This document shows, in pieces, positions 10,187 through 12,770 of a stretch of DNA of 64,000 nucleotides; positions within the stretch are counted from its first letter, which is position 1; each line of letters begins with the position of its first letter. The DNA lies in contig NZ_VOQQ01000001.1 of NCBI RefSeq assembly GCF_007995055.1, positions 124,001 to 188,000 on the forward strand, read 5' to 3'. The translations under genes were made by a program, and so were the position numbers. This stretch comes from Sphingosinicella ginsenosidimutans. Lineage in GTDB: Bacteria; Pseudomonadota; Alphaproteobacteria; Sphingomonadales; Sphingomonadaceae. The notes beneath the pieces were generated by a model. The model did no database searches. It was not told the origin of the DNA and saw only the letters and a program-made list of their open reading frames with translations.

Positions 10187-10903
10187 ATGCGCCCTTCGGG
10201 CCGCGCGCCAGACCAGATGCGCGCCATCACGATGGAGGCGGGCTTCACCCGCCATGCCGAAGGGAGCTGCCTCGTCAGCTTCGGCGAGACCCGGGTGCTG
10301 TGCACCGCATCGGTCGAGACCAACCTGCCGCCCTGGCTGCGCGGCAAGGGCAAGGGCTGGGTCACGGCGGAATATGGCATGTTGCCGCGCGCGACCCACA
10401 CGCGCGGGCGGCGCGAGGCGGCGAGCGGCAAGCAATCGGGGCGCACGCAGGAGATCCAGCGGCTGATCGGCCGTTCGCTTCGCGCGGTGGTCGATCTCGA
10501 GGCGCTCGGCGAGCGGCAGATCACGCTCGATTGCGACGTGATCCAGGCCGATGGCGGCACCCGCACCGCCTCCATTTCCGGTGCCTGGGTGGCGCTGAGG
10601 CTTGCCGTGGACGGCCTGATCGAAAAGCAGCTCCTCGCCGCCGACCCCATTCGCGACAAGGTCGCGGCGGTGAGCTGCGGCATCCATGACGGAACGCCGG
10701 TGCTCGATCTCGATTATGTCGAGGATTCCTCGGCCGGGTCGGACGGCAATTTCGTGCTGACCGGCCGCGGCCAGATCGTCGAGGCGCAGGTGAGCGCGGA
10801 GGGCGACGTGTTCGACGAGGAAGGGCTGCTGCGCCTGCTCCGCCTCGCCCGCATCGGCTGCGGCGAGATTTTCGCGGCGCAGGACCGGGCGACCGGACGA
10901 TGA
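10187..10903 (+). CDS. rph: Ribonuclease PH
   Basis: 238 residues. Phosphate-dependent 3'-5' exoribonuclease that trims tRNA 3' ends; hexameric, cytoplasmic. It starts [12 protein letters not shown], the usual N terminus, and carries [17 protein letters not shown] and the phosphate-site segment [14 protein letters not shown], with [15 protein letters not shown] in the second half. Length is standard. SD GGGAG at 10176-10180. Its stop overlaps the rdgB start (ATGA), opening the rph-rdgB-hemW operon. Confidence 0.98.
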
Positions 10904-11550
10904 CTCGCAAGCTCGCGCCCGGCAGGCTGGTCATCGCCAGTCACAATGAAGGCAAGGTGCGCGAGATTCGCGACCTGCTCGGCCCCTATGGGATCGAGCC
11001 GGTCTCGGCCGCCGAGCTCGACCTGCCCGAGCCCGAGGAGACCGGCGTCACCTTCATGGACAATGCCGATCTCAAGGCGCGCGCCGCCGCCGATCTTTCC
11101 GGCCTCCCCGCGCTCGCCGACGACAGCGGCCTGTGCGTCGAGGCGCTCGGCGACCGGCCCGGCATCTTCTCGGCGCGCTGGGCGCTGGTCGATCCGCATG
11201 TCGATCCGGCCGCCGATCCAGGCCGTGTCGAGGGCGAGCGCGATTTCGGCCGCGCCATGCGCCGCGTCGAGGACGAGCTGGAAGCGCTCGGCCCCGACGC
11301 GAGCCGCGCCGCCCACTTCGTCTGCGCGCTCGCGGTCGTGTGGCCCGACGGGCATAGCGAATGGTTCGAGGGCCGGGTGGACGGAAGCCTGGTCTGGCCG
11401 CCGCGCGGGGACAACGGCTTCGGCTATGATCCGATCTTCGTCGCGGCCGGCCGCGACGTGACCTTCGGCGAGATGGACCCGGCCGAAAAGCACGCGATCA
11501 GCCACCGCGCGGACGCCTTCCGCAAGCTGGTTGCGGCGCTTTTCGCTTGA
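10900..11550 (+). CDS. rdgB: dITP/XTP pyrophosphatase (non-canonical purine NTPase)
   Basis: 216 residues. Hydrolyses dITP, dXTP and dHAPTP to monophosphates, keeping deaminated purines out of DNA. Family motifs: [17 protein letters not shown] (substrate and Mg site), [46 protein letters not shown] and [16 protein letters not shown]. Length is a little above the usual 195-200 because of a longer loop around 100-125. It is coupled by overlap to rph before it, and its TGA overlaps the hemW TTG start. Confidence 0.97.
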
Positions 11551-12770
11551 GCCACGCCCCCACCTCGTTCGTCCCGAGCGAAGTCGAGGGGCGTTTCTCA
11601 GACTCTTTGCCGGCGCCCCTCGACTTCGCTCGGGACGAACGGAGGCCGGCGGATTCGCACGACCTTGCCCTCTACATCCACTGGCCGTTCTGCGTTTCGA
11701 AATGCCCTTATTGCGACTTCAACAGCCACGTCCGCGAATCGATCGATCAGGACGCTTGGCGCGAGGCGCTGCTCGCCGACCTGGCTTATGAAGCTCGCCA
11801 GACCCGCGGCCGACGCCTGACCTCGATCTTCTTCGGCGGCGGCACCCCATCGCTGATGCCGCCGGCGACGGTCGCCGCGCTCATCGATGCGGCGGAGGCG
11901 CAGTGGGGGTTCGCGCCCGGCATCGAGATCACGCTGGAGGCCAATCCCAATTCGGCCGAGGCGGCGCGCTTCGCCGATCTCGCCGCGGCCGGCGTGAACC
12001 GGGTCTCGCTCGGCCTCCAGTCGCTCGACGATGCGGCGCTGCGGTTCCTCGGCCGCGCGCATGATAAGGCGGAGGGACTGGCGGCGCTGGACATCGCGCA
12101 GTCCGCCTTCACCCGGGTGAGCTTCGACCTCATCTACGCCCTTCCCGGCCAGAGCGCCGCCGCGTGGGAAGCCGAGCTTTCAAGCGCGCTCTCCTTCGGC
12201 ACCGGCCACCTCTCGCTCTACCAGCTCACCATCGAGCCAGGCACGCGATTCGCGACGCTGGCGGCGAAGGGCGCGCTTGCCCCCGCCGATCCCGAAGAAG
12301 GCGCGGCGCTCTACGAACTCACCCAGGCGCTTACCGGGGCCGCGGGCCTCCCCGCCTACGAAATCTCCAACCATGCGCGGCCGGGCGAGGAGAGCCGGCA
12401 CAATCTCGCTTACTGGCGCTACCGAAGCTATGCCGGCATCGGCCCCGGCGCGCACGGCCGGCGCGGGGGCGTCGCGACGCAGCGGCACAAAAAACCCGAA
12501 AACTGGATCGCGGCCCTCACCCGCAACGGCCACGGCATTGCCGAAGAGCGCGCGATCGCGCCCGCCGACGCGACGATCGAGGCGCTGCTGATGGGCCTCA
12601 GGCTTCGCGAAGGCGTCGATCTCGGCCGGATCGGGGCGGAGGCGATCGATGCCGCCGCCGTGCGCCGCCTCGCCGATCAGGGCCTGCTCTGGGCCGACGG
12701 CGCGCGCCTCGGCGCCACCCCGGCCGGCTTCCTCCTGCTCGACGCGATCCTCGCCGAGATCGTCAGTTGA
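11547..12770 (+). CDS. hemW: HemW-type radical SAM heme chaperone, with repeat-encoded N terminus
   Basis: 407 residues if started at the TTG overlapping the rdgB stop. Radical SAM protein of the HemW (formerly HemN-like) family, which binds heme and delivers it to target proteins. The core begins [19 protein letters not shown] (4Fe-4S CxxxCxxC) and continues with [10 protein letters not shown], and HNLAYWRY holds the HNxxYW motif that separates HemW from true HemN. The preceding ~38 residues (FVPSEVEGR...LDFARDER) are encoded by a perfect 27-bp inverted repeat and are not part of the family. Another TTG (11607) inside the repeat is an alternative start. Its 3' end overlaps lpoA by 8 bp. Confidence 0.93.
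11567..11640. repeat. Perfect 27-bp-arm inverted repeat inside hemW
   Basis: Arms 11567-11593 and 11614-11640 are perfect reverse complements (start GTTCGTCCCGAGCG, end CGCTCGGGACGAAC) around a 20-bp spacer. The core resembles a dispersed sphingomonad repeat around 'CGAGCGAAGTCGA'. It lies within the translated frame of hemW and keeps it open. Confidence 0.92.

Follow-up and report, generated by a model that had tools for sequence, protein, structure and literature searches.

The subject of this analysis is a palindrome of 76 bp in a 64,000-nucleotide stretch of the Sphingosinicella ginsenosidimutans genome (contig NZ_VOQQ01000001.1, positions 124,001 to 188,000; called the window below). It lies between the stop codon of rdgB and the conserved ALYIHWPFC core of HemW, the two genes being on the same strand with rdgB ahead of hemW. 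It was concluded that the palindrome is likely to be a mobile element that inserted in frame among the opening codons of hemW, following a TTG that overlaps the rdgB stop, where it is predicted to be translated as a disordered tail.

A perfect palindrome within the hemW reading frame

The repeat search of the window returned an inverted repeat with arms of 28 nt, free of mismatches, around a spacer of 20 nt, and a sequence check confirmed that the right arm is the exact reverse complement of the left. The initial annotation had placed a perfect repeat inside the hemW frame between the rdgB stop and the radical-SAM core; the perfection of the arms and their position were borne out by the repeat search and the open reading frames, but the arms are 28 nt long rather than 27 bp. 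A chance palindrome was ruled out by the perfect arms, by the genomic copies described below, and by two further results. A 20-base core taken from the arm, with up to 3 mismatches allowed, was found in the window at these two sites only (0.03 expected from shuffles), and the RNA of 11540-11670 was predicted to fold at −80 kcal/mol (z −8.6; shuffle mean −48), with none of 200 shuffles folding as well. Four matches to Rfam, all far under the gathering scores, were taken as matches to the shape of the hairpin, and a known RNA family was rejected.

From TTG 11547 the hemW frame is open across both arms and the spacer up to the stop at 12770, as had been claimed, and codons 1-40 stand before the conserved core. 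Ahead of the core, an in-frame ATG, GTG or TTG occurs only at 11547 and at 11607, and from 11610 to the ALY core the frame contains no ATG, GTG, TTG, CTG, ATT, ATC or ATA. Any standard start of hemW would therefore bring at least the second arm into the protein. A start codon past 11640, which the initial annotation had offered as grounds against its own interpretation, was ruled out for standard starts, as there is no in-frame candidate downstream of the repeat.

In two relatives with short junctions and no repeat (G009 and G017), about 11 to 12 codons separate the start from the ALY core, compared with 40 here, and the net gain is therefore about 29 residues. The initial annotation had counted about 38 residues absent from the family; the absence stands, and the count is reduced to the net figure. 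A conserved N-terminal domain of HemW was ruled out, as the N termini of relatives were either short or filled by different repeats, and this comparison of genes with and without the repeat supported the segment being foreign to HemW. In an AlphaFold model made with 40 aligned proteins, residues 1-23 and 28-35 had a predicted local distance difference test (pLDDT) score below 50, a low value that is forced in part, since the relatives had been trimmed to the matching core and few or none aligned with the tail; the first strand began at residue 39, and the core was confident. The model is consistent with a tail of palindrome origin that is probably disordered and harmless.

The identity of HemW holds by its match to a curated model over the cut-off (Table 1), from which the heme chaperone role is predicted. 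The best named matches were from Sphingobium and Sphingomonas at 72-73% identity, in a collection from which records of the own genome may be missing. A TTG start and a foreign N terminus could also mark a hemW that is decaying toward loss, but this is extremely improbable. The core is full length and over the HemW model cut-off, and the three cysteines C49, C53 and C56 are among the columns invariant in HemW and 39 relatives. Furthermore, this is the sole full-length hemW match of the genome, the five other matches being repeat-length pieces, and no internal stop was seen in the full hemW matches listed from relatives of the same genus.

Table 1. Positions in the window of the two genes, the palindrome and the candidate start codons
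Feature	Position	Strand	Evidence
rdgB, non-canonical purine NTP pyrophosphatase, upstream coupled gene	10900..11550	+	TIGR00042, 159.8 bits (cut-off 145.35)
hemW, radical SAM heme chaperone (predicted), 407 codons from TTG 11547	11547..12770	+	TIGR00539, 283.8 bits (cut-off 205.4); PF04055, PF06969
Likeliest hemW start, TTG, overlapping the rdgB stop as TTGA	11547..11549	+	ATGA, GTGA or TTGA in frame at 18 of 24 adjacent genus junctions
Palindromic repeat element, 76 bp	11566..11641	+	Perfect arms; 13 full genomic copies of 73-77 bp
Left arm	11566..11593	+	Repeat search; similar arms elsewhere in the genome
Spacer, holding the second candidate start	11594..11613	+
Alternative hemW start, TTG, in the spacer	11607..11609	+	Chosen by the codon-usage gene caller
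Right arm	11614..11641	-	Reverse complement of the left arm

Copies of the element in the same genome

With up to 3 mismatches allowed, a 23-base piece of the arm matched the 3.04-Mb genome 35 times, 17 times on one strand and 18 on the other, and the reversed control gave none. Seventeen distinct places were read from 18 loci, with L001 and L019 counted once; three weak arm matches of 3 mismatches each (C1:852458, 1289506 and 1391344) were left out of this context reading. Thirteen of the 17 places hold a full palindrome, 73-77 bp long, whose arms differ by 0 to 7 mismatches. By reading, the spacers of these palindromes look related, and the copies were found in both orientations, as expected of a small mobile unit. 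In an order-wide sample of 118 genomes, arm matches at up to 2 mismatches were present in 13, the own genome counted, and the reversed control gave one match in each of three genomes. The stretches at L001 (C1:4391) and L019 (C1:3026207), near two main-contig ends, are seemingly identical and are probably the redundant ends of a circular contig.

Seven of the 13 full copies are intergenic according to a codon-usage gene caller, and one is ambiguous, lying near the start of ubiA with the ATG after the copy. The remaining five are in frame in proteins, namely HemW, MurD, SufD/SufS, an E2 acyltransferase and RNase R. The count of genomic copies that the initial annotation had called for thus revealed a multi-copy family, part of which lies in frame in genes. 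The copy in MurD (TIGR01087) spans about codons 46-75, within the N-terminal domain. In the E2 acyltransferase, which has a lipoyl and an E3-binding domain, it spans about codons 122-150 in the linker, and a second E2 (L001) carries a single arm only, again in the linker. The RNase R copy spans about codons 259-288, between CSD2 and RNB; several relatives are without the segment, with the match breaking near query residue 260 and resuming near 288, and some match through. RNase R scored under the cut-off of TIGR02063 because the C-terminal part is absent from the frame. The C-terminal motif was seen in another frame (C1:313631-314986 region; L021 and L274), so that the gene looks frame-split, whether by sequencing error or in reality.

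At sufD-sufS (L009, C1:1311533-1311602), one copy serves both genes: SufD takes its last residues from the left arm, the spacer carries TGATG, comprising the SufD stop and the SufS start, and early SufS residues are read from the right arm. SufS matched TIGR01979 over the cut-off; the best family for SufD was TIGR01981, at 186.7 bits against a cut-off of 222.

One Y1-type transposase (PF01797) was found in the genome. It is RAYT-like (NF047646, 70.6 bits, under the cut-off of 80), and its 3.3-kb locus (L061) yielded two arm matches at 5 of 19 mismatches and none at 4 or fewer. Being a single candidate gene unlinked to the element, it was rejected as the carrier.

The rdgB-hemW junction in related genomes

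The junction was surveyed in 80 genomes, 26 of the genus and 54 others of the family. Nine of the 80 were without an rdgB match in the stretch, and 12 of the remaining 71 had rdgB and hemW more than 320 nt apart; in the 59 junctions kept (24 of the genus and 35 others of the family), 11 to 281 nt separate the rdgB stop from the HemW core. Repeats were assigned by a loose classifier of six classes that allows up to about 20% mismatches to the motif; of 400 pieces of 120 nt drawn at random from the neighbouring DNA of six loci, it labelled 5. A repeat was labelled at 17 of the 24 genus junctions and 15 of the 35 family junctions, the labels being weak for G012 and G023 (genus) and G208 (family).

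Five of the classes were found at this junction inside the genus, and sister species differ in class on a tree of RdgB plus HemW (quick search with SH-aLRT, an approximate likelihood ratio test, and no bootstrap): G019 carries class C and G007 class E (support 99), G003 class A and G021 class C (98), and G006 class E and G010 class C (92). At least 15 changes, as gains, losses or replacements, are needed to place the labels on this tree among the 24 genus rows. The junction in the genus recurrently holds unrelated repeats, and it appears to be a place where selfish DNA has landed and survived repeatedly. At the hemW locus of G006 (L158), four or five copies of another inverted repeat (AATGGGGACAGTAACTATTTTCC and variants) were seen within 18 kb around hemW.

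The hairpin at the start of the frame is very stable, and unrelated repeats occupy the same junction in many species. Both observations would also be explained by a hairpin kept for a role in RNA, such as tuning of rdgB-hemW coupling, mRNA cleavage or hemW translation, for which unrelated repeats would be equally good. This role is nonetheless quite unlikely, as 7 of the 24 adjacent genus junctions were without a recognised repeat and four of these had only 28-50 nt before the core, indicating that the hairpin is dispensable. In addition, the repeats in MurD are in the middle of the coding sequence and are better explained by tolerance.

Assignment of the start codon

An ATGA, GTGA or TTGA overlap in frame with hemW was found at 18 of the 24 genus junctions and at 10 of the 35 from the rest of the family. 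An in-frame overlap of stop and start is therefore the rule in the genus, and it was deduced that the hemW start has probably not been displaced. The initial annotation had left the choice between a tolerated tail and a displaced start, and of these the tail is favoured. In G035, G001 and G211, an in-frame ATG, GTG or TTG was present ahead of the palindrome and none was present within or past it, and the palindrome is therefore translated whole in these genomes, unless an unusual start is used. In four others, G139 (L181), G191 (L190), G128 (L188) and G020 (L150), the hemW frame lacks all three of these codons in the stretch from the rdgB stop to the core. G191 and G128 have an in-frame CTG overlapping that stop (CTGA), which might be the hemW start there.

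The other candidate is TTG 11607 in the spacer, from which only the second arm would be translated (20 codons ahead of the core), the first arm being 5' untranslated. This codon is in frame and was picked over 11547 by the codon-usage caller; class-A copies in G005, G003 and G018 have an in-frame GTG or ATG within the palindrome, and the SufS start in the own genome seems to be the ATG, or a GTG just before it, in the spacer of the same element. By estimate, an internal start codon often arises by chance in a repeat of such length, and it need not be a special trait of the element. The closest purine run, GAGGGG, ends 15 nt before TTG 11607, which is too far, and lies within the stem. The caller is biased against the long form because repeat codons score badly. 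Together with the in-frame overlap at most genus junctions and the three relatives without such an internal start, these data make initiation at 11607 an unlikely, though not negligible, alternative to initiation at TTG 11547.

Open reading frames across the palindromes

Palindromes were scanned in 39 of the 80 loci, these being the longer ones in which rdgB was found; the two genes were adjacent in 34, and a score of 13 or more was taken as strong. In the 34 loci, strong palindromes were present at 14 hemW junctions (3.6 kb in total for the 34), versus 50 palindromes in the other 521 kb, and block-shuffled versions of the 39 loci contained 5 overall. The strong palindromes outside hemW junctions in the 39 loci were intergenic in 37 cases, inside a called gene in 12 (mostly of the lowest score) and overlapping in 4.

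The hemW frame was open across the strong palindrome at 15 of 15 junctions, including two (L178 and L181) assigned to hemW by hand, the caller having missed the hemW start, as compared with 3 of 20 other co-directional junctions with a palindrome, at which the downstream frame was open as far back as the upstream stop (Fisher, 3e-7). The palindrome of G093 (L169) extends into the core; without it, the frame was open at 14 of 14 (Fisher, 1e-6). As the rows share ancestry, these Fisher values serve as guides only. An in-frame ATG, GTG or TTG was found within 100 nt past the palindrome at 19 of the 20 other co-directional junctions. When co-directional gene pairs were sorted by distance, palindromes with a score of at least 13 were found in 0 of 123 overlapping pairs, 0 of 32 pairs at 1-30 nt, 1 of 67 at 31-100 nt, 19 of 52 at 101-250 nt and 2 of 36 beyond, and in 13 of 31 called rdgB-hemW pairs, the zeros being partly an artefact because a caller that skips repeats shifts pairs to the wide-gap bin. 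Two of the 22 non-hemW pairs with a palindrome are really hemW (L178 and L181 again). Weight was therefore put on the open-frame test.

Several points weigh against an in-frame insertion that is translated from TTG 11547, in addition to the forced pLDDT values and the shared ancestry. TTG is a weak start, no clear Shine-Dalgarno sequence was found in the 25 nt preceding it, and the gene caller favours the other codon. Of the 32 labelled hemW junctions, 28 had an open hemW frame, and 28 of the 64 frames other than that of hemW were also open; the corresponding counts at the 27 unlabelled junctions were 23 of 27 and 31 of 54. A stop in the hemW frame was present at four of the 32 labelled junctions (G019, G208, G214 and G159), where all or part of the repeat may therefore lie ahead of a later start. 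Lastly, one old insertion may be common to G000, G018 and perhaps G003.

The MurD and SufS sites in relatives

MurD and SufS were picked because the own genome has inserts there and are therefore not an unbiased sample. For MurD (loci L222-L247), 24 of 26 genomes were read. In these 24, the distance from the WD motif to ADP was 14-23 codons in 17 and 38-60 in 7, and the frame was open in all 24. Of the seven long loops, that of the own genome carries class A, five carry class D and one is unclassified. For SufS, one of 26 genomes was without a match, and a labelled repeat (A or D, some labels being weak) was found past the last in-frame start in 9 of 25. The distance from the SufS start to the PLD motif was mostly 8 codons in repeat-free relatives and is 22 here.

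Relation to known repeats

Protein-coding palindromes are best known from Rickettsia (Ogata 2002 as cited in PMC10969869; PMC2229807), where the elements are 105-146 bp long and rickettsial (PMC2229807, PMC10969869). Further cases in genes are described for Wolbachia and enterobacteria, and REPs lie within genes elsewhere (PMC2229807, PMC3733652). The initial annotation had compared the present repeat to the Rickettsia palindromic elements. The likeness holds in that both are small, palindromic, multi-copy, non-autonomous and in frame in conserved housekeeping proteins. It does not extend to identity, since the present element is 73-77 bp long and occurs in a sphingomonad, and the same sites bear unrelated repeats elsewhere; the likeness is one of form and setting, not of compared sequences. 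The element is best read as a protein-coding palindromic repeat that works like the Rickettsia palindromic elements but belongs to another family, set apart by length and host.

The CGTC-tagged REPs of alphaproteobacteria (Di Nocera 2013, PMC3733652) share several features with it: pairs of inverted short units with a conserved spacer, occurrence in sphingomonads, some copies within genes, no dedicated transposase known, and a unit with CGTC, which stands inside the present arm four bases in from the outer end. In contrast to those REPs, a single unit forms no stable hairpin here, each arm folded alone as DNA being no better than shuffles (z 0.35 and 1.28), and the sequence past CGTC is not an AT-led 8-9-bp stem, as judged by the text of that paper only. 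By reading, the class E repeats at the hemW junction of other species do fit its text description. The same account places these REPs inside genes more often at the NH2 terminus and warns that many may not be coding. For hemW, this warning is answered by genes without later standard starts and by the open-frame comparison.

REPINs mobilised by RAYT (PMC3116915) likewise consist of two inverted short units with a related spacer and are accompanied by dispersed single units, whereas the RAYT-like gene here has no flanking arm match at the threshold given above and falls below the NCBIfam cut-off. Small mobile sequences with open frames in enterobacteria (PMC2759123; ERIC and RU in PMC2229807) are also miniature repeats fused in frame to genes, but differ in sequence, length (103-168 bp) and host (PMC2759123, PMC2229807). 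Among the best-ranked matches in the open-licence literature, there was no account of palindromes in HemW or MurD of sphingomonads, and the arm sequence was unmatched; a word search of the main text of RepRanger (PMC12306157), as available, gave no mention of sphingomonads. Protein-coding palindromes themselves are already known; the present case is a variant in which the same protein sites have repeatedly captured repeats of several classes.

Proposed mechanism and implications

In the mechanism that we propose, the element would insert in the first codons of hemW, behind the start that overlaps the rdgB stop. Ribosomes ending rdgB would restart at TTGA and then read through the palindrome, from which a tail of about 29 extra, disordered residues would be made. 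The N terminus would tolerate the insert because the tail precedes the first strand of the core. Insertions that are out of frame or bear a stop would silence a hemW without a later start and be purged, and those in frame would remain.

More tentatively, the N termini of HemW and SufS and the loop of MurD may, in this genus, be repeated in-frame landing sites of several unrelated palindrome families. Translatable palindromes might then be a standing source of new tails and loops, able to supply a stop and the next start as at sufD-sufS, perhaps through insertion directed to translation junctions.

For annotation, the finding is a warning that the start codon chosen by a gene caller may fall inside such a repeat or beyond it, as was seen here. 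It also presents a group outside the Rickettsiales with coding palindromes in several core enzymes and with classes that differ at the same sites in sister species. These differences between sister species are natural replicates for weighing neutral survival against directed insertion and usefulness.
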